IMG/VR virus record: IMGVR_UViG_3300046009_003344
Location: 1 to 35,861 of that record
Strand: one strand, 5' to 3'
Source: a virus
Length of the DNA: 35,861 bases
Position 1 is the first letter of the stretch; each line of letters begins with the position of its first letter. The notes beneath the pieces were generated by a model, which was not told the origin of the DNA, made no database searches, and saw nothing but the letters and a program-made list of their open reading frames with translations. The translations under genes were made by a program, and so were the position numbers. Below are positions 1,627-33,386 of this stretch, one piece after another.

Positions 1627-2006
1627 GAGTGCTCCTTAAATTCAGGTAGTGGCATCCAGTGGGTGACTATGCGTTCAAATAAACCATCGCAAACATAAAA
1701 TTCAAAACCAAAACTACCATCGTCATATTTTGTTAATACGTCAGTGGTTATTCGACCTGCGCCTGTTTTAACAAGAACCTCAGTTCTAAGCGGCGGCAAT
1801 TTATCATCAACACTAACCCATGCCGCTTGAATAGCGGCTTGAATTGCAAAGCGCATATTATCAACGTGTTCATCATACGGCTCATTAACTGGCTCACCAA
1901 ACCACGCCTCGAGAGCCGCTTTGATCATTTTGGCTGGTACTTGCATATCAATACCCCACAACCCCATATCTATTCGTTTTAACGGCTTTGGCAATGAATA
2001 AATCAT
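1623..2006 (-). CDS. DUF551-like protein
   Basis: The C-terminal part of this 127-residue protein carries the DUF551 pattern: WVSVDDKLPPLRTEVLVKT at about residues 63-81, an aromatic-rich strand with DDGSFGFEFYV, and the closing THWMPLPEF. DUF551 domains are common in phage accessory genes; their role is unknown. The N-terminal part is amphipathic, with AIQAAIQAA. The start at 2006 is supported by AGGAG seven bases upstream even though it puts the first 59 bases inside the end of the preceding HTH gene. An internal ATG (MGLWGIDM, residue 14) is a possible alternative start. Overlap with the next gene is ATGA. Confidence 0.78.
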   Translation of the reverse strand: MIYSLPKPLKRIDMGLWGIDMQVPAKMIKAALEAWFGEPVNEPYDEHVDNMRFAIQAAIQAAWVSVDDKLPPLRTEVLVKTGAGRITTDVLTKYDDGSFGFEFYVCDGLFERIVTHWMPLPEFKEHS

Positions 2007-2466
2007 TAAACACTCCTAGCACATCACTTGCGCTAACTTCTTGTGTTGTAGCACGTTTTGGTACGTAATAGCGCCATTTGTCGCGATCTTGCAGCACTTC
2101 ATAAACAGTCGGCGCCCGCATGTTCATTTTATGGGCAATTGCTTTAGCGTCCATCTTTTTAGTTTCGTACAATTTGACAATCTGATGGTTACGCTTTGCG
2201 CGTTGTTCTTGCAGTATTTCACCTGTGCGAATTACGTTAATGCTTAGAATATCAGCCCAACGATACATTGTTGAAACTGATGTTAGCTTAAAGCTCCACG
2301 CGGTCGCTCTGGTCCGCATAACCGACTGTGCAAGATATAGGTCGTTCTTTAACGCTTCCTTAAATTCAGGCTTAGTGGTTGTATGCCCTTTTGGTATTCT
2401 ATGTGCGTGTTGGTTATACCATGCGTCAACGCGTGCATTGATTTCTTCTTGAGTTAGTTTTTTCAT
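1948..2466 (-). CDS. Helix-turn-helix domain protein
   Basis: This 172-residue basic protein has a likely helix-turn-helix near residues 105-130 (DAKAIAHKMNMRAPTVYEVL), resembling the resolvase- or terminase-small-type HTH used for sequence recognition. The N-terminal 50 residues contain EFKEALKNDLYLAQSVMRTR, which looks helical. It could be an operon regulator or another DNA-binding accessory protein; sequence alone does not separate these. The start is coupled to the upstream membrane-anchored coiled-coil gene by a 4-base overlap. Its 3-prime end overlaps the DUF551-like gene by 59 bases in another frame, unusually long for this genome. Confidence 0.7.
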   Translation of the reverse strand: MKKLTQEEINARVDAWYNQHAHRIPKGHTTTKPEFKEALKNDLYLAQSVMRTRATAWSFKLTSVSTMYRWADILSINVIRTGEILQEQRAKRNHQIVKLYETKKMDAKAIAHKMNMRAPTVYEVLQDRDKWRYYVPKRATTQEVSASDVLGVFNDLFIAKAVKTNRYGVVGY

Positions 2467-2765
2467 AACAGAATAAATCCCGATATTGTGTAACCGATCA
2501 CTAATGAAATACCAATGGCAAAAGCTAAATACCAGCGATAGGCTGTTAGGGTATCGTCATAGTCGTTTTCAGCTTCTATCAACTTAATGCGTAAGTCGAT
2601 ATTCTCGTTGTTGACTTCGCTGTAATCGTCATCCAATTCCCGATAGCTTTGCAGTAAATCAGCGTAATCGCTTTTGACAATTCCGATTTTCAACTCTAGG
2701 TCGCTAATCTGTTGCTTTTCTTCATCGCATAAGCGACGTGGTTTTACGTAAGGTCTTTTGATCAT
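2463..2765 (-). CDS. Coiled-coil protein with C-terminal membrane anchor
   Basis: This 100-residue protein begins with a basic stretch (MIKRPYVKPRRL). A charged helix of about 60 residues with heptad-like hydrophobics follows (EKQQISDLELKIGIVKSDYA onward). A single transmembrane helix ends the chain at about residues 80-100 (LAFAIGISLVIGYTISGFIL). The layout suggests a tail-anchored cytoplasmic coiled coil at the inner membrane. I do not recognise the family. It overlaps its neighbours by 4 bases on both sides, typical of this operon. A spanin-like role is unlikely because the topology is reversed and the gene lies outside the lysis cassette. Confidence 0.7.
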   Translation of the reverse strand: MIKRPYVKPRRLCDEEKQQISDLELKIGIVKSDYADLLQSYRELDDDYSEVNNENIDLRIKLIEAENDYDDTLTAYRWYLAFAIGISLVIGYTISGFILL

Positions 2766-2992
2766 AATAATCCGTTCCTTTTCTTAAAGTCGTGGGCGCT
2801 TGCGCATTTGCTATTGCAAAATAGCTGCCCTTCTAAGTGTAGTTCTTCACCACAGTAGTGACATTCTCCGGTAACCGCTAAAGTGTCCGCTGTTGCCATT
2901 CGTGCGGCTTTGATTGCCGCTTCTGTTGCTAGCTCGATTTGATGTTGAGCTTGATCTATTTCGTCGCCGTGAATCATCGTTAATGCATCCAT
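2762..2992 (-). CDS. Small zinc-ribbon protein
   Basis: In this 76-residue protein a helical N-terminal half (QIELATEAAIKAARMATAD) is followed by a four-cysteine zinc site: CHYC at about residues 44-47 and CNSKC at about 58-62, with a basic end (HDFKKRNG). Spacing and the GxxFCNSKCASAHDF pattern resemble the DUF2116-type or YacG-like zinc ribbons found in phage genomes. DksA/TraR is a weaker alternative because the second cysteine pair is not followed by the usual helix. It probably binds nucleic acid or a host protein. There is little Shine-Dalgarno sequence in front of the ATG, so translation may depend on coupling to the micro-gene that overlaps its start. Confidence 0.68.
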   Translation of the reverse strand: MDALTMIHGDEIDQAQHQIELATEAAIKAARMATADTLAVTGECHYCGEELHLEGQLFCNSKCASAHDFKKRNGLL

Positions 2993-3054
2993 GAGATTAG
3001 TAGTAAAAGTGCCATTAGGTTAATGGCTAGGTAAACTGGTAGGTCGGTGTTCAT
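2980..3054 (-). CDS. 24-residue membrane micropeptide
   Basis: A short open frame encodes a 24-residue peptide that is nearly all hydrophobic (MNTDLPVYLAINLMALLLLI, then SWMH). Its ATG overlaps the stop of the upstream gene (ATGA) and is preceded by AGGAG seven bases away, one of the better ribosome sites in the operon. The frame ends 13 bases inside the zinc-ribbon gene. The peptide would span the inner membrane once. Without it the space between the 80-residue gene and the zinc-ribbon gene would be the only sizeable gap in this part of the operon. The function is unknown. Confidence 0.55.
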   Translation of the reverse strand: MNTDLPVYLAINLMALLLLISWMH

Positions 3055-3293
3055 TTTCCAACTCCTATCCCGTGGGCTTTTTCGATAGCTCTAACAACGC
3101 CAATAGTGTCTCCTTCATGCGCATTTACAATCCGCATTATTTCATCTTCACTCAACGGCTCACGCGTTGGTGCGGCTTGCCACATACTGCTGTATATATC
3201 ATACTTTGACCATCTGGAGTAGCTGGACTGAGTTTCTGCGGTCATCATCTCTTCTGTCGGCTCACTTGGTAGCCATTTGTGTTGTGTTGTCAT
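3051..3293 (-). CDS. Hypothetical phage protein (80 residues)
   Basis: The N-terminal half carries the WLPSEPTEEMM and MWQAAPT elements seen in many short phage proteins of accessory operons. In such proteins a 'sample-type' region (SYSRWSKYDIYSSMWQAAP) precedes variable tails. The C-terminal half (EDEIMRIVNAHEGDTIGVVR) could form two helices. No catalytic motif is visible. The stop overlaps the ATG of the 24-residue peptide. The gap to the upstream gene is four bases. The gene is supported by operon packing and family-like phrases; no function is proposed. Confidence 0.68.
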   Translation of the reverse strand: MTTQHKWLPSEPTEEMMTAETQSSYSRWSKYDIYSSMWQAAPTREPLSEDEIMRIVNAHEGDTIGVVRAIEKAHGIGVGK

Positions 3294-3297
3294 TTTC

Positions 3298-3546
3298 TCA
3301 CTCCCTAATCCCGTGCCAATACTCTACAGCTTCGACTAAATCCGCTGTATCATCAATGCAACCACGTTGCATCATGCTATCAATATCTCGCGCCGTCATC
3401 GGCTTGATTGTCGATAGTGCGGCTTCGAGAGCGGCTTTCATACCATGAGCTGTCGCAACGCCTCGCAGTAATATCTGGCTGTGGCTTCTGTTATAGGTGT
3501 CGTAAGCATTGCAAGCTAACTCAACCATTTCGTCTGTTACTGTCAT
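3298..3546 (-). CDS. Hypothetical phage protein (82 residues)
   Basis: This protein starts with TVTDEMVELACNAYD and has HGMKAALEAAL near the middle. These two phrases recur together in short accessory proteins of many proteobacterial phages. The rest (MTARDIDSMMQRGCIDDTAD) is helical and acidic. No metal site, membrane segment or signal peptide is seen. Its ATG overlaps the stop of the 54-residue gene upstream (AAATGA). A distant relation to the neighbouring 80-residue gene is possible, since both have the same short-helix layout. No function is proposed. Confidence 0.68.
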   Translation of the reverse strand: MTVTDEMVELACNAYDTYNRSHSQILLRGVATAHGMKAALEAALSTIKPMTARDIDSMMQRGCIDDTADLVEAVEYWHGIRE

Positions 3547-3707
3547 TTCACTGGCTCCATATATTTCACACCCATTAAGTGATCTTTTGGTTGTTGTTGA
3601 AAAAATTTAAGCGTTGCTTGGAATTGGCTATTCGCTTCGATTGTTGTCCGCTTCATCGTGCCATGACCATATTCACGGTAAAGCACTTCCCACTTGCCTA
3701 GCGTCAC
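3543..3707 (-). CDS. Hypothetical 54-residue protein with GTG start
   Basis: This open frame fills the space between the SleB-like gene and the 82-residue gene. It starts with GTG at 3707-3705, overlapping the upstream stop (GTGA), and its own stop overlaps the downstream ATG. GGAG lies about 11 bases before the start. The product begins VTLGKWEVLYREYGHGTMKR and continues with a Gln-rich middle (FFQQQPKDH). It has no recognisable domain, though the start resembles short phage proteins that begin with a strand of aromatic residues. Overlaps at both ends are the main support for it being real. Confidence 0.6.
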   Translation of the reverse strand: MTLGKWEVLYREYGHGTMKRTTIEANSQFQATLKFFQQQPKDHLMGVKYMEPVK

Positions 3708-4291
3708 GTGTTGACTCCTTTTTGCTTTGGTTTAGCTTTAGTTGGTCGCCCGTCGTTCTTAACAGGCTTTTGTTTGCTGTCAAAATAGTGATGCTGTCCG
3801 ACTTTTCCGATGTACTTCATACCCTTGGACCATTCAGGCGGTGCGATTATTTCCGAATAATAGTGGTCGGCAGTTCCAACTATTTGCGGTAGTTGTTTTG
3901 CTAGTGCCTTGTGGGCGATTATTTCCGCTTTTTGGTAGGCTTCAGGTTCTTCTATTATTAAGTCCTTCTTGCGCGTCCAGCTAAACTGATTAGGCTGATA
4001 AACCACTTTGCATACGCTAGGTGGGTAGCGTTCGTCTTTAACGCGGTTAAGTGTCGTGTTCGCTACTGCAATTTGTCCTTTGTGCGATTCGCCTCTAGCT
4101 TCAAAATAAACATTTTCGGCAAGGCAAACATCCTCACTTTTCAGCTTTTTCGGTATTGCTACCGACTTAGGGCTTGCGTATTCTGAGCCGTAAACTTCGA
4201 CTGTGTTGTCTGGTTGGTATTGGTAGGTAATCATGGCAAAAGCTGGGGCTGCTATTGCACCTAGCCATAATGTGTTGGTTAATGTTTTCAT
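3704..4291 (-). CDS. SleB/CwlJ-type cell wall hydrolase, secreted
   Basis: This 195-residue protein has the Hydrolase_2 (SleB/CwlJ) fold signature: CLAENVYFEARGES at about residues 56-69 with the catalytic-type glutamate, GQIAVANTTLNRV, and VVYQPNQFSW. Family members cleave peptidoglycan as lytic transglycosylases or amidases. The first 20 residues (MKTLTNTLWLGAIAAPAFA) look like a signal peptide or signal anchor, so the enzyme should reach the periplasm. The last 30 residues are Lys/Pro-rich. The start at 4291 has GGAG six bases upstream. It is the first gene of the leftward accessory operon, just after an intrinsic terminator, and is separate from the M15 peptidase in the late lysis cassette. 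Confidence 0.88.
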   Translation of the reverse strand: MKTLTNTLWLGAIAAPAFAMITYQYQPDNTVEVYGSEYASPKSVAIPKKLKSEDVCLAENVYFEARGESHKGQIAVANTTLNRVKDERYPPSVCKVVYQPNQFSWTRKKDLIIEEPEAYQKAEIIAHKALAKQLPQIVGTADHYYSEIIAPPEWSKGMKYIGKVGQHHYFDSKQKPVKNDGRPTKAKPKQKGVNT

Positions 4292-4313
4292 GCTCTACTC
4301 CGTATATAGGCGT

Positions 4314-4338
4314 AAAAAAACCAGCTTATTAAGGCTGG
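4314..4338 (-). terminator. Intrinsic terminator before the SleB-like gene
   Basis: Read leftward, the sequence is CCAGC, a 9-base spacer-loop, GCTGG, then seven T. It lies 23 bases upstream of the first gene of the accessory operon and at the end of the non-coding block. It therefore either ends a separate small RNA or acts as an attenuator that controls entry into the operon. Confidence 0.8.
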
Positions 4339-4740
4339 CAAAGAGGTAAATAGAAAGCGCGGCTCCACAAAATTGTAAAACACCACATTTGACACAAGTT
4401 AATAAAAACCGCGCTTTGTATTTAATCCGTTCTAATCGCGCCCGTGAACGGTAACGGGGAAGTGGTAACGAGTGTCATAACCATCGCTTGCAATATTGAC
4501 TCGGGCGCTAAGTAATCCGCTAGGAAACCTTAACGCTTGCGCGGATATGCCAGCCGCTTGATAGGATTAACCTATTCAATAACCACTCTCTTGACCGTAC
4601 TTTCCGATCTGTCAGTTTAGTTTTTACCTTTTTAGAGGTTGATTTGAGAGCGGTTATTGAATAGTGCCACTCTACTGCGCGGTGGCTGTGCGCGTTCCCA
4701 AGTTGTTAAAGTGCTGGTTGCGTTTTGTCGTTCGCTATGG
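4314..4740 (-). ncRNA. Candidate structured RNA or attenuated leader (~425 nt)
   Basis: This non-coding stretch is bounded by a sigma70 promoter (4746-4774) and an intrinsic terminator (4314-4338), both leftward. Paired arms seen: GCGC 4677-4680 with 4690-4693; a 19-base arm pair with one mismatch, 4572-4590 with 4646-4664; ATCCGC 4515-4520 with GCGGAT 4541-4546; CCCGT 4441-4445 with ACGGG 4454-4458; and AAAGCGCGG 4354-4362 with CCGCGCTTT 4409-4417. A local hairpin ATAGG/CCTAT (4561-4575) competes with the base of the 19-base stem. I find no convincing gene inside; a 20-codon frame (MVMTLVTTSPLPFTGAIRTD) exists but lacks a ribosome site. I do not recognise an RNA family. Confidence 0.5.
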
Positions 4741-4745
4741 GTGTA

Positions 4746-4774
4746 ATATTAATCTAGCGGGCGTTATTTGTAAA
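4746..4774 (-). promoter_or_regulatory. Sigma70 promoter of the non-coding block
   Basis: On the minus strand TTTACA, 17 bases, TAATAT. Upstream lie A/T tracts, including a perfect 16-bp palindrome CTTAAAAATTTTTAAG at 4793-4808, that could act as an UP element. The -35 box is one half of an operator. Box sequences and spacing are the same as in the promoter at 9562-9590. Confidence 0.7.
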
Positions 4775-4787
4775 GTGCTGTTTTACA
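4769..4787. promoter_or_regulatory. Operator TGTAAA-N7-TTTACA (site 1)
   Basis: A 19-bp inverted repeat with perfect 6-bp arms overlaps the -35 box of the leftward promoter at 4746-4774. It has the same length and arms as the sites at 9585, 11113 and 11154. It is a probable binding site for the Cro-like protein encoded at 11188-11418; that assignment is inferred from position. Confidence 0.65.
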
Positions 4788-4820
4788 TTTTTCTTAAAAA
4801 TTTTTAAGCTGCAAATAAAT

Positions 4821-6158
4821 TTATAAGCATTTCAAAGCGTTAAGTAGTGATAGTTGATTAGCGTCTTTGCTGTTTAACACCTTTATTACGCGCTCATCCA
4901 AACAACCTTTAGCTATTAGGTGAACAACACGGACGGGTTTGGTTTGTCCTTGTCGGTATAATCGGGCATTAAATTGTTGGTAGTATTCAAGATTCCATTG
5001 CATTGAGAACCATACCATCAATGAGCCGCCATGCTGTAAGTTTAAGCCATGGCCAGCGGATTGAGGATGGGCTAATAGCATCTTAATACCCCCATTGTTC
5101 CATCGGTTGATTGTGTTGGGGTCTTTATCTAACACAACGGCATCGGGAAAGGCTTTTAGTAACCGCTCAAGGTCGGACTTAAAGTTATAAGCAACAAGCA
5201 TCGGCTCATCGTTTTGCTCTACTAGTTCTTTTAACGCCTCAATTTTAACATCGTGCAATACGCTGTAATTGCCGTTTGCGTCGGTGTATGTTGCGCCTGA
5301 GCAAAACTGCAATAGCTTGTTAGCCAAAACAGCGGCATTCATGGCTTCCAGTTCTTGACCGTCTGCAAGCGTTAAAAACAGTTCTTTTTCAAAAGTGTCA
5401 TACGCTGTTTGCGCTTGTTCGGGTAGTTCTAGCAGTTCGGTTAATATTATTTTTTCAGGCAATTCTAAATAATCCGCCGCTTGCATACTGATAACCTTAT
5501 CGCTTATCGCTTCGTGTATCTTTTGGCTTGCGCCTGCACGTATCTTATAACTAAAGCCGTGATAATCGGTTTCAAAATAGCGGTCACGATATGCCGTTAA
5601 GGTTTTACCAAGTGACGCGCCATAATCCACAAGGTACATTTGCGCCCACAAGTCGATTAAACCGTTAGGGCTGGGTGTGCCCGTTAATAGCACCATGTAA
5701 TCGGTTAGACTGCTAACCGCCTTTAATGCCTTAAATCGCTTTGATGTAGCGTTCTTAAAACTTGATGACTCGTCAACAAAGATAGCGTCGAAAGGAAAGC
5801 GTTTGCCGTAGTGCTTGACTAACCAAGGGATGTTTTCACGATTGATAACGTACACATCGGCATCAAACTGTAAAGCAGATAGGCGTTTCTTTTCGCTACC
5901 TGTAACCACTGACACGCGCAAATGTTTTGTGTGTGACCATTTACTAGCCTCTTGCGCCCAAACGCTGTTAGCAACCCTTAGGGGCGCAATGATAAGCACT
6001 TTTGAGCAAGTGAAGCTGTCTATCATATCGCTAATGGTTGTGAGGCTGGTTGCTGTTTTACCAAGCCCAAGGTCAAGGAATAACGCGCATCGTTTTTTGT
6101 CTTTAATGAAGTCAATCGCCTTGTTTTGGTAGGCGTGAAGGTTATCGCGGGAAAGCAT
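4821..6158 (-). CDS. SNF2-family DNA helicase/translocase
   Basis: This 445-residue ATPase has SNF2-type motifs in order: Walker A in LDLGLGKTATS (near residue 32), a DEAH-like FVDESSSFKN (near 130), LLTGTPSPNG (motif III, near 158), and the C-terminal motif VI region NARLYRQGQTKPVRVVHL (near 405). Proteins like this drive translocation along duplex DNA and accompany VRR-NUC nucleases and polymerases in phage replication modules. The start chosen is the ATG at 6158 with AGAGGCG before it; a TTG two codons upstream is less likely. The gene overlaps the VRR-NUC gene by 17 bases. It is the last gene of the leftward replication block. Confidence 0.9.
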   Translation of the reverse strand: MLSRDNLHAYQNKAIDFIKDKKRCALFLDLGLGKTATSLTTISDMIDSFTCSKVLIIAPLRVANSVWAQEASKWSHTKHLRVSVVTGSEKKRLSALQFDADVYVINRENIPWLVKHYGKRFPFDAIFVDESSSFKNATSKRFKALKAVSSLTDYMVLLTGTPSPNGLIDLWAQMYLVDYGASLGKTLTAYRDRYFETDYHGFSYKIRAGASQKIHEAISDKVISMQAADYLELPEKIILTELLELPEQAQTAYDTFEKELFLTLADGQELEAMNAAVLANKLLQFCSGATYTDANGNYSVLHDVKIEALKELVEQNDEPMLVAYNFKSDLERLLKAFPDAVVLDKDPNTINRWNNGGIKMLLAHPQSAGHGLNLQHGGSLMVWFSMQWNLEYYQQFNARLYRQGQTKPVRVVHLIAKGCLDERVIKVLNSKDANQLSLLNALKCL

Positions 6159-6411
6159 GATCAATCGCCTCTTTAGTATCTAACACCAACACAGTGCAAC
6201 CGTACGCCCGACGCTTTTCATGATCGCGTAATTGTAGCTCGGTTGGTTTTTTGTTCGGTGCTTTTAGTTCTACAAAAATAATTTGACCGTCTGGCATTGT
6301 TACAATGCGGTCGGGTACTGATCGCTTGGCTGGGCTGGTAAACTTTTCGCACATTCCGCCCAACTCTTTTATGCGCTTAACTAAATAGGCTTCGATTTGT
6401 TTCTCTAACAT
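6142..6411 (-). CDS. VRR-NUC domain nuclease
   Basis: This 89-residue stand-alone VRR-NUC domain of the PD-(D/E)XK superfamily contains KRSVPDRIVTMPDG (the PDR motif with the metal-binding Asp) and IIFVELKAPNKKPTELQ (the E-x-K pair), followed by a QLRDHEKRRAYG helix. Family members cut branched or flap DNA, and single-domain phage versions are Holliday-junction-type nucleases. The start is ATG at 6411 with GGGTGA upstream; a GTG at 6426 would add five residues. The gene lies between the GIY-YIG gene and the SNF2 gene and overlaps both, a common pairing of nuclease and translocase for processing replication intermediates. Confidence 0.9.
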   Translation of the reverse strand: MLEKQIEAYLVKRIKELGGMCEKFTSPAKRSVPDRIVTMPDGQIIFVELKAPNKKPTELQLRDHEKRRAYGCTVLVLDTKEAIDHAFPR

Positions 6412-9561: not shown

Positions 9562-9590
9562 ATATTACACTGACTTTTTTAATTTGTAAA
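9562..9590 (-). promoter_or_regulatory. Sigma70 promoter of the DUF2815 gene
   Basis: On the minus strand TTTACA, 17 bases, TAATAT, with the -35 box inside the operator at 9585-9603. The early leader contains GTTTTGTCTTTCG (plus-strand reading, 9540-9552), nearly identical to GTTTTGTCGTTCG at 4722-4734 downstream of the other promoter of this type. Confidence 0.75.
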
Positions 9591-9603
9591 GTAAAACTTT
9601 ACA
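9585..9603. promoter_or_regulatory. Operator, perfect palindrome (site 2)
   Basis: TGTAAAGT-AAA-ACTTTACA: 8-bp perfect arms over 19 bp, the most symmetric of the four sites. It overlaps the -35 box of the DUF2815 promoter and ends just before the stop codon of the DUF2800 gene. Confidence 0.7.
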
Positions 9604-11112: not shown

Positions 11113-11131
11113 TGTAAAATTGCGCTTTACA
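11113..11131. promoter_or_regulatory. Operator (site 3, left half of divergent region)
   Basis: TGTAAA-N7-TTTACA, perfect 6-bp arms over 19 bp. Its right arm is the -35 box of the rightward promoter, and it adjoins the -10 box of the leftward promoter, so one bound dimer could block both. Confidence 0.7.
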
Positions 11132-11154
11132 TATTACCCAATCAGCGTTATTAT
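11126..11154 (+). promoter_or_regulatory. Rightward early promoter
   Basis: TTTACA at 11126-11131, 17 bases, TATTAT at 11149-11154. Transcription should start near 11161, giving a leader of about 27 bases before the GTG of the Cro-like gene. It drives the regulator and the primase-helicase. Confidence 0.8.
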
Positions 11155-11159
11155 GTAAA
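11131..11159 (-). promoter_or_regulatory. Leftward early promoter
   Basis: On the minus strand TTTACA (complement of 11154-11159), 17 bases, TAATAT (complement of 11131-11136). It overlaps the rightward promoter almost completely, face to face, so the two cannot fire at the same time. It drives the Ala/Pro-rich protein and DUF2800. Confidence 0.8.
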
Positions 11160-11172
11160 GCGTAATTTAACA
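11154..11172. promoter_or_regulatory. Operator (site 4, right half of divergent region)
   Basis: TGTAAA-N7-TTAACA: the same 19-bp design as the other sites with one mismatch in the right arm, so perhaps the weakest. It contains the -35 box of the leftward promoter and begins at the last base of the rightward -10 box. Confidence 0.62.
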
Positions 11173-11187
11173 AATAAGGAACGAAAA

Positions 11188-11418
11188 GTGAAAAAAGAGA
11201 TTATCGACTCGGTTATGAAGCATTTTGGTAGTAAGACCAAAACAGCTAAACGGTTAGGGGTCACTAGACAAGCGATTAATTATTGGTATGTGATAGGTGG
11301 AGTGCCGCCTGAGCCAGCTATTCGCATTGAGCGTATCACAGATGGTAAATTCAAAGCGGTTGACCTAGTAGTACCTAATGACGTTGATTCGGTAAAAGGT
11401 GATGCCGATGCAGTCTAA
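11188..11418 (+). CDS. Cro-like transcriptional regulator
   Basis: This 76-residue HTH protein resembles Cro/YdaS-type phage regulators. The HTH lies at about residues 13-37 (GSKTKTAKRLGVTRQAINYW), followed by the family's usual GGVPPEPAIRIERITDGKF segment with which these proteins dimerise. The start is GTG at 11188 with AAGGA six bases upstream; frames extending to 11074 would run through the promoters and are rejected. It is the first gene from the rightward promoter and overlaps the primase gene by 11 bases. I infer that it binds the four TGTAAA-N7-TTTACA sites, repressing itself and the leftward early units. No CI-type antagonist is present. Confidence 0.88.
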   Translation: MKKEIIDSVMKHFGSKTKTAKRLGVTRQAINYWYVIGGVPPEPAIRIERITDGKFKAVDLVVPNDVDSVKGDADAV

Positions 11419-14615: not shown

Positions 14616-15223
14616 TGCAAGTAGAACAAATCGCAACGGTTGATTTAATTCCGTACGCACGCAACAGCCGTACGCATAGCGATGAACAAGTTGCACAAGT
14701 CGCAGCGTCAATACGCGAGTTTGGTTTTACTAACCCAGTATTGATTGATCAGGATAACGGTATTATTGCAGGACATGGGCGCGTAATGGCTGCAACACGC
14801 TTAAAACTCGACACAGTGCCTTGTATTCGACTTTCACACCTAAGCGATACACAGAAGCGGGCATACATCATTGCAGACAACAAACTAGCCCTTAACAGCG
14901 GATGGGATGATGAAATGTTGAAGCTGGAACTAATGGACTTAAATGAGCTAGGTTTTGATGTTGCTTTGACGGGTTTTGATGCTGAGTTTCTCGAAGACGA
15001 AGCGATTGATGATTTTGAACCAGAATTAAACAGCAATGATCGTGACCCTATTCGAAATATGACTTTTACCGTATCAGATGAACAGCATGAGATTATTGAG
15101 GAATGCCTAAAAATAGCTAAAGAATTTGAACCCAATGATCCTATGGGAATAAATGAAAATAGCAATGGTAACGCGCTTTGGTACATTTGTGAAACATTCA
15201 AGACCACTAAAGGCATTGCATAA
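14612..15223 (+). CDS. ParB N-terminal (ParB/Srx) domain protein
   Basis: This 203-residue protein has a ParB/sulfiredoxin-like domain in its first ~110 residues: IPYARNSRTHSDEQVAQVAA, then SIREFGFTNPVLI and the nucleotide-binding-type loop GIIAGHGRVMAATRL, then ADNKLALNSGWDDEM. In many phages and islands this domain is fused to an adenine DNA methyltransferase; here no methyltransferase follows. The acidic C-terminal third (FLEDEAIDDFEPEL) is variable. It overlaps the Mom-like gene by one base, so the two proteins probably act on the same DNA substrate. Alternative ATG at 14615. Confidence 0.87.
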   Translation: MMQVEQIATVDLIPYARNSRTHSDEQVAQVAASIREFGFTNPVLIDQDNGIIAGHGRVMAATRLKLDTVPCIRLSHLSDTQKRAYIIADNKLALNSGWDDEMLKLELMDLNELGFDVALTGFDAEFLEDEAIDDFEPELNSNDRDPIRNMTFTVSDEQHEIIEECLKIAKEFEPNDPMGINENSNGNALWYICETFKTTKGIA

Positions 15224-15942
15224 TGAGCGCACTTGAAATAGAAGTGAAACCAATCCCAAAATCAAAAGCTGATGAAATTGTAAAGAAGCATCATTATAGC
15301 GGCAAAGTGGTGCAAAATAGCCAGCTATGCTTCGGGGTTTGGTATAAGGGCGTTTTAATGGGTGCAATGCAATTCGGACCACCAACTGACAAACGAAAGA
15401 TATTACCACTGGTAAAGGATAGCGGATGGAACGAAATGTTGGAATTGAACCGCATGGCATTCAGTGACCATTTACCAAGGTTTAGCGAAAGCCGAGCAAT
15501 TAGTCTTGCGTTTAAGTGGATGAAAAAAAACGCACCTCACATAAAATGGGTGGTTAGTTTTGCAGACGGAACGCAATGCGGACACGGGACTATTTATCAG
15601 GCTAGTAATTTTAAGTTGTCACAGATTAAAGAAAATAGTCGACTAATTGAATTACCTAATGGCGAAAAAATACATTTATTAAGCATGGACGTATCTAAAG
15701 GGGGAAGCAAATACTCCTCCGATATGAAAAAGAACGGAATGACTTCTGTAAAAGAATACCTTGATAAATTCCACAACGGATGGAAGCCGTTAACAGGTTA
15801 TATGTACCGTTATATCTATTTCATAACGAAGGACGCAGAAAAACGATACACGGGCGAGTTCGTACCGTTTGCAAAGATAAAAGAACTCGGTATTCAAATG
15901 TATAAAGGCGAATGGGTGAATAATGGCATTCAGCAATCGTGA
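15223..15942 (+). CDS. Mom-like DNA adenine modification protein
   Basis: At 239 residues, this protein is close in length to phage Mu Mom, an acetyltransferase-fold enzyme that converts adenine in DNA to a methylcarbamoyl-type adduct and shields it from restriction. Family-like elements are KADEIVKKHHYSGKVVQN near residue 15, FGVWYKGVLMGAMQFGPP near 38, ELNRMAFSDHLPRFSESRAI near 75, VVSFADGTQCGHGTIYQASN near 108, and GYMYRYIYFITKD near the end. No Com-like zinc protein is nearby. It lies between a ParB-domain gene and the terminase genes, fitting modification just before packaging. The family call rests on remembered motifs. Confidence 0.75.
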   Translation: MSALEIEVKPIPKSKADEIVKKHHYSGKVVQNSQLCFGVWYKGVLMGAMQFGPPTDKRKILPLVKDSGWNEMLELNRMAFSDHLPRFSESRAISLAFKWMKKNAPHIKWVVSFADGTQCGHGTIYQASNFKLSQIKENSRLIELPNGEKIHLLSMDVSKGGSKYSSDMKKNGMTSVKEYLDKFHNGWKPLTGYMYRYIYFITKDAEKRYTGEFVPFAKIKELGIQMYKGEWVNNGIQQS

Positions 15943-32561: not shown

Positions 32562-32889
32562 TTATTCAAATGCAATCGCTTACGGTCAACAAAAAAAACT
32601 AATCGAACAATGCGGATGGGGATTGGTTGGTAACGATTACGCAAGTTTGACGTGGGAAGGTGAAAATAAACCGACTCAAGAGTTGCTTAATTCACTAGCT
32701 AATGATGCTGATTTGTTCTTTGAGATTAGCCAATATAATCACGACATGACGTTAAAGCGTCAAGAAGCGTATCGGACTATCTCAGACCCATTAATGTTCA
32801 AATGGCAACGTGGGGAAGCAACTCAGCAAGAATGGCTCGATGCTGTTGCAAGTATTAAAGCGCGTTATCCGATGAGGGAGTTGCCATGA
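32554..32889 (+). CDS. Tail fibre assembly-type protein
   Basis: This 111-residue protein has a C-terminal half (YRTISDPLMFKWQRGEATQQ, then EWLDAVASIKARYP) that resembles the small proteins (chaperone or DUF4376-like) placed after phage fibre genes. The N-terminal half has no clear match. The start is ATG at 32554 with GAGGACGGA upstream, overlapping the preceding gene by 8 bases. A helper role in folding the fibre or the short tip protein is inferred from location. Confidence 0.65.
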   Translation: MPNYSNAIAYGQQKKLIEQCGWGLVGNDYASLTWEGENKPTQELLNSLANDADLFFEISQYNHDMTLKRQEAYRTISDPLMFKWQRGEATQQEWLDAVASIKARYPMRELP

Positions 32890-33386
32890 AGCTAACAACC
32901 AATTTTAGAACTGATATTGACAACAAAATCACAGGCGGCTTAGATTGGCACGGGTTAAGTGATGATGTTCAAGCCAATTTAATGATGGTTGTTGAAAATG
33001 CTCAAGCGATTCGTGACTATTTAGGCAAGCCTGTTATTGTATCTAGTGGCTTACGTTCGCAAGCTAAAAACGCAAGTTTGGATGGTGCTAGTAAAACAAG
33101 CCAACACCTTTACGGTGAAGCACTTGATCTCGTGTTAGGCGATAACCTTGATCGAGTCTTTAGGGGATTGATGTTGGGTTTAATTCACACACCTCACCCA
33201 TTCAGTCAGGTTATCCATGAAACGAACGGTAATGGCGCTCAGTGGCTTCATATTGCCGTTGTGACTGATAGATGGTTGGCTGTCAATAAAGGCAAACCGC
33301 ATCGCTTAACACAAACTGAGTTCCTTGAAACTAAAGACGGCAAGTCTTATAAGCTAGTATCATTAAAACCATTCAGTGTTTTGTGA
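32886..33386 (+). CDS. Endolysin, M15 peptidase (D-Ala-D-Ala/L-Ala-D-Glu type)
   Basis: The 166-residue zinc peptidase of the M15 family is the probable endolysin. Motifs: IVSSGLRSQAKNASLDGA, the metal site SQHLYGEALDLVL near residues 77-89 (His and Asp), and the second histidine site AQWLHIAVV near 119. It should cut stem-peptide bonds in peptidoglycan. There is no signal peptide, so export would need a holin; two small membrane proteins downstream (33424 and 34845) are holin candidates. It is the first gene of the lysis cassette and overlaps the fibre-assembly gene by four bases. Confidence 0.9.
   Translation: MKLTTNFRTDIDNKITGGLDWHGLSDDVQANLMMVVENAQAIRDYLGKPVIVSSGLRSQAKNASLDGASKTSQHLYGEALDLVLGDNLDRVFRGLMLGLIHTPHPFSQVIHETNGNGAQWLHIAVVTDRWLAVNKGKPHRLTQTEFLETKDGKSYKLVSLKPFSVL

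Follow-up and report, generated by a model that had tools for sequence, protein, structure and literature searches.

To our knowledge, a detailed account of antitermination by RNA alone exists for very few phages (put of HK022). In phage lambda, the leader made between pR' and tR' (6S RNA) is opened by Q, and the RNAs GOLLD and ROOL are associated with phages. The put RNA of HK022 is about 70 nt long, consists of two stem-loops and acts in cis, and putL lies just downstream of PL (PMC9378689). We compared these systems with a non-coding block in the 35.9-kb virus record IMGVR_UViG_3300046009_003344 (positions 1-35,861; hereafter the window). The nearest well-studied analogue is put, which shares with this locus the terminators ahead of early genes (PMC9378689), and the 57-nt motif of related leaders described below likewise places two hairpins close to the 5' end; however, no match to put in sequence or in shown structure emerged, Rfam scans giving nothing at the gathering score, and put packs two long stems into about 70 nt, whereas the leader of the window adds 300 nt of folded RNA. 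As in lambda pR'-tR', the predicted untranslated RNA runs from a promoter to an intrinsic terminator ahead of lysis-type genes, but it belongs to a leftward repressor-controlled regulon and is about twice as long, and no Q-type protein was identified here. Reminiscent of nut and rrn boxA sites (PMC4807359, PMC10250234), a boxA-like sequence lies about 30 nt past the predicted start of the structured, untranslated leader; this site nevertheless carries one mismatch (11 of the 12 positions of GCUCUUUAACAA, one of two such sites in the genome), no convincing boxB is evident, and boxA was not enriched after the helicase gene across relatives, where its overall distribution resembled that of controls. 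An exact GCUCUUUAACAA follows the promoter of L138. The predicted leader RNA is also large, folded and non-coding, as are GOLLD and ROOL (PMC12286853), but it is smaller, stands at the head of an operon and has no Rfam match. The kind of element, a phage operon leader with a terminator, is known, but the form seen at this locus is undescribed; that the feature is real and unusual within its phage group was confirmed, and its mechanism we inferred.

The leftward genes of the window run from a replication block (DUF2800 and Enc34-type ssDNA-binding proteins, a GIY-YIG protein, a putative polymerase, an SNF2 helicase, and a small gene called nuclease-like by analogy with relatives), with the helicase gene last, through a gap at 4292-4820 to an accessory block. 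This gap, given as 530 bp in an earlier note on the same DNA, measured 529 nt and is non-coding: it holds no ORF of at least 60 aa, and the longest ORF starting within it has 47 aa. Among 194 distinct phage or prophage regions, the helicase was separated from the next 60-aa ORF, counting both strands, by a median of 13.5 nt (95th percentile, 184 nt), and the 529 nt of the window was the longest by this measure, which misses L145, the gap of which is filled by spurious reverse ORFs. In Pseudoalteromonas phages AL and PHS21 and in Vibrio phage 1.017.O, the gap is short and contains a terminator-like hairpin and a promoter-like sequence. Every element named in the earlier note, from the palindrome through operator, promoter and inverted repeats to the terminator, was found in place on the minus strand (table 1), the terminator standing 22 nt before the ATG of the next gene. 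One correction applies: the accessory operon, put at 15 genes, showed about 12-13 visible genes, and these only with the record ends joined. This operon includes a gene for a DksA-like zinc-finger protein (2762-2992), a possible modifier of host polymerase. Two endolysin-type genes occur in the window: the Hydrolase_2 gene of the leftward block (3704-4291) and, among the rightward genes, one for a peptidase M15 (32886-33386).

Table 1. Features of the leader locus in the window and of related leaders in other phages (L-numbered positions refer to those records).
Feature	Position	Strand	Basis or remark
First accessory-operon gene, Hydrolase_2 endolysin-like	3704-4291	minus	domain assignment; ATG at 4291
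Predicted untranslated structured leader RNA, ~425 nt	4313-4740	minus	fold statistics; no ORF
Intrinsic terminator, 6-bp stem 4339-4320 and U tract to 4313	4313-4339	minus	-8.9 kcal/mol
Hairpin B, 19 pairs including GU, arms 4405-4424 / 4347-4366	4347-4424	minus	inverted repeat and shuffles
Helix GCGCCCG/CGGGCGC, arms 4501-4509 / 4438-4446	4436-4511	minus	predicted fold
Short hairpin AUCCGC/GCGGAU (inverted repeat 4513-4547)	4513-4550	minus	predicted fold
Hairpin A, 19 pairs, arms 4645-4664 / 4572-4591	4572-4664	minus	inverted repeat and shuffles
Segment resembling the 57-nt motif of other phages	4673-4724	minus	covariance model, 8.8 bits, E 0.66; lost in the wider model
boxA-like GCACUUUAACAA	4703-4714	minus	11/12 to rrn boxA core
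Promoter TTTACA (4774-4769), 17-nt spacer, TAATAT (4751-4746)	4746-4774	minus	predicted start near 4740
Operator TGTAAA-N7-TTTACA	4769-4787	none	one of four sites; its right half on the minus strand forms the -35 box
AT palindrome CTTAAAAATTTTTAAG	4793-4808	none	just past helicase gene
Cro/YdaS-like regulator	11188-11418	plus	domain assignment; candidate repressor of four operators
57-59-nt motif	L145:4396-4452, L270:4399-4455, L316:3995-4051, L170:4418-4476, L284:4412-4470, L335:2766-2708	as listed	near the 5' end of early leaders
Second conserved leader	L139:4429-4575, L276:4441-4587, L273:4380-4535, L307:11905-12060		after the helicase gene

The -35/-10 pair with 17-bp spacing and the 19-bp operator described earlier were both confirmed, and the pattern is repeated at two other gene starts. 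The exact combination TTTACA-17-TAATAT occurs three times on the minus strand of the window, every time upstream of a gene start, with the hexamers and spacing of the leader promoter recurring at 11159 and 9590. Each of the three TTTACA -35 boxes forms half of a TGTAAA-N7-TTTACA inverted repeat (with a single mismatch in one copy), and three exact copies of this repeat were observed in the window, compared with about 0.005 expected. By inspection, a similar pair facing rightward, TTTACA-17-TATTAT, lies at 11126-11154. The four operator sites (4769-4787, 9585-9603, 11113-11131, and 11154-11172), which have -35 boxes inside them, look like one regulon, of which the Cro/YdaS-like protein is probably the regulator, being the natural candidate. 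No second promoter of the TTTACA-17-TAATAT type was found ahead of the accessory operon, in agreement with the earlier note, in which no separate promoter for it had been found.

Nowhere else in the genome is folding as strong as in the leader, with a fold z of -4.7 on the minus strand, the one that would be transcribed, versus -2.5 on the plus strand. When the genome was scanned in 180 segments of 400 nt each, the two minus-strand segments over the leader ranked first and second. The leader contains two 19-pair helices, each matched by 0 of 300 dinucleotide shuffles, which we take to be plausible RNase III substrates, and an intrinsic terminator stands between the promoter and the first gene, as in an attenuated operon leader. 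Rfam scans of the window gave nothing at the gathering score, riboswitch, GOLLD, ROOL and intron families included, and neither did scans of related leaders; matches to rseX and to a human lncRNA in these scans were at chance level and were rejected.

By analogy with the systems described above, we proposed that the block is an attenuated, repressor-controlled leader of the third leftward transcription unit that is opened by antitermination, a reading to which we assign a probability of about one half. The phage repressor, probably the Cro-like protein, would control the leader promoter jointly with the promoters of the replication genes, and the polymerase would make about 425 nt of RNA before meeting the intrinsic terminator 22 nt ahead of the endolysin-like gene. 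By default, most transcripts would end at this terminator as a short RNA, and the accessory operon would be expressed upon polymerase passing it; the 5' part of the leader would most likely render the polymerase resistant to termination, much as nut or put sites do. Control by read-through fits the locus because a repressor-controlled promoter, a folded leader, and a terminator abutting the first gene are found together with no similar later promoter. The identical promoter-operator layout at three leftward gene starts also counts for the leader reading, as do the extreme folding on the strand that would be transcribed, the like layout of other phages and the placing of the first motif model's best match (see below).

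Leaders behind an early promoter were found in six other environmental phages, four of them long and with a terminator-like hairpin (L145, L270, L316, and L337, the last being the record of L335); in all four, a promoter-like pair is followed by the terminator-like hairpin before the first gene. The leaders of L145 and L270 are non-coding and 420-486 nt long, and those of L316 and L337 precede genes for small putative membrane proteins in other gene contexts. The fold z was -3.3 for the L145 leader and -3.1 for the L337 leader plus the start of its first gene. Between L270 and L316, the terminator-like hairpins differ by one compensatory pair (CCAUCAG/UUGAUGG vs CCACCAG/UUGGUGG). L126 and L266, which are close relatives of L145, have the promoter without the leader, and their first gene is, by eye, a homologue of the first gene of L270 and L316. 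A leader is not generally needed, because these two phages keep the promoter and first gene without it. Conservation among the related leaders is confined to the 5' motif, the remainder having been swapped. As these comparisons show, leaders are gained and lost between relatives, and the slot ahead of the accessory genes is a site of gain, loss, and exchange of different structured leaders.

The conserved 5' stretch of 57-59 nt is common to L145, L270, L316, L170, L284, and L335, lies 12-21 nt past the -10 box, and reads AACGNA, a 5-bp hairpin, GCA(A), and then GG-C-CGG...CCG-AUAGA-CC. In its first hairpin, all five pairs vary on both sides among the six sequences (which represent about three lineages, in an alignment fitted to the model and thus leaning towards structure), every cell is still paired, and sliding the partners abolishes this pattern. 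No Rfam family matches the motif-bearing leaders, and blastn against GenBank phages returned no related leader, one search giving just short AT-rich matches; we consider the stretch a candidate new RNA motif, absent from Rfam. Among 369 bacterial genomes of one class, the motif search gave 11 weak matches at E <= 0.01 where about 4 were expected, none near the scores of true members. L315, L332, and L334 were rejected as carriers, their matches being chance matches to parts of the motif.

Whether the window itself carries this motif is answered differently by the different searches. A first model (R1), built from five members with the window excluded and run with filters off, placed its top match of the whole window exactly where the leader begins, which is the expected place, although the match was weak (table 1); in a second model (R2), to which L335 had been added, the match was gone, with none in the leader at E up to 10. 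The matched segment (4724-4673) begins 21 nt past the -10 box by counting, within the placement of the motif in other early promoters (19 nt in L145, L270, and L316, 21 nt in L170 and L284, and 12 nt in L337). In pairwise alignments against 3580 background segments it ranked 2, 3, and 4 with L270, L284, and L316, and 39 and 358 with L145 and L170. These results are no more than suggestive of homology between the first 60 nt of the leader and the 57-nt motif. We regard as doubtful the narrower idea that phage antiterminator RNAs of a new family include this leader as a diverged member, a family in which the two-hairpin 5' motif of 57 nt would carry polymerase through the long folded leader and its terminator to switch on the accessory genes. 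Counted against the leader reading as a whole are the loss of the motif match in the wider model, the mismatch in the boxA-like site, the absence of boxA enrichment, and the leaderless L126 and L266.

The earlier note had offered a free structured RNA and an attenuated leader as the two options, and the unit of promoter, operator, RNA, and terminator on which both rest is well supported. In the former, the main rival, which we consider somewhat unlikely, a free-standing folded phage RNA of about 425 nt would act in trans, its targets being, say, RNases, polymerase, or small RNAs of the host, while leaky read-through would serve the accessory operon. The promoter-to-terminator unit is complete, folding is extreme over its whole length, and the presence or absence of leaders among close relatives resembles that of an independently acquired element, all of which would suit such an RNA; however, the terminator adjoins the operon, no other such promoter lies ahead of that operon, and a long RNA acting in trans is hard to match with leaders that conserve just the 5' motif. 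Of the two options, leader control is favored because elsewhere the conserved 5' motif comes directly after an early promoter with an operator, and in most cases a terminator-like hairpin then precedes the first gene. In L170 and L284, moreover, no long RNA accompanies the motif, which sits inside a short 5' UTR, and this favors a role in cis.

A role in cis could also be that of a local attenuator, in which mutually exclusive pairing, a ligand, or translation of a 35-codon ORF decides termination. GGCUGGCA at 4548-4555 is perfectly complementary over 8 nt to a terminator arm, and the ORF (4395-4288) spans the terminator and ends at the start of the first gene, but such complementarity was reached in 93 of 2000 shuffles and is only marginally unusual, the ORF has a GTG start and no visible ribosome site, and no riboswitch family matched, so that we hold this to be improbable.

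Two viral contigs carry the leader block identically, and a third (IMGVR_UViG_3300042470_000489) is about 95% identical over 1944-6411 and 100% identical over 3100-5234, a 2.1-kb block that takes in the leader, the hydrolase gene, and a portion of the helicase gene. This block is a recent recombination rather than a product of selection on the RNA, because the 100% identity spans genes as well; purifying selection, which the identity with this 95% relative had at first resembled, was rejected on the same ground. The leader was absent from all other relatives found, had no homologue by blastn among GenBank phages and plasmids, and a DNA pattern made from hairpin A retrieved just close copies and one chance match across viral contigs. 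Least probable of all is that the gap is an insert without function or with a structural one, such as a stretch brought in by recombination, the remains of a gene, or a DNA site like an origin, and that its folding is incidental: the block did move recently together with its neighbors, and nothing occupies this place in most relatives, but the fold z is biased to the transcribed strand, the two 19-pair helices are beyond shuffles, and promoter and terminator bracket the block. An origin of replication at the gap was rejected, the cumulative GC skew turning near 10-11 kb instead.

A set of environmental phages with a repressor-controlled promoter, a conserved 5' RNA motif, and a terminator before the accessory genes would make it practicable to study how early phage genes are gated at elongation instead of initiation. 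A second conserved leader, with the order CCCTATCGGAT..GGGGATAATAA..CCGAGAATACAA..TTGTATTTACGAT, follows the helicase gene in other phages (table 1); L139, L273, and L276 were scanned and gave no Rfam match, and apparent compensatory changes occur in two of its hairpins. In L304, the helicase gene is split by two inserts, one of about 820 nt (2178-3001) and one of about 950 nt (3480-4429), which gave no Rfam intron match and are perhaps inteins or endonuclease insertions. The window also encodes a Mom-family DNA modification protein at 15223-15942.
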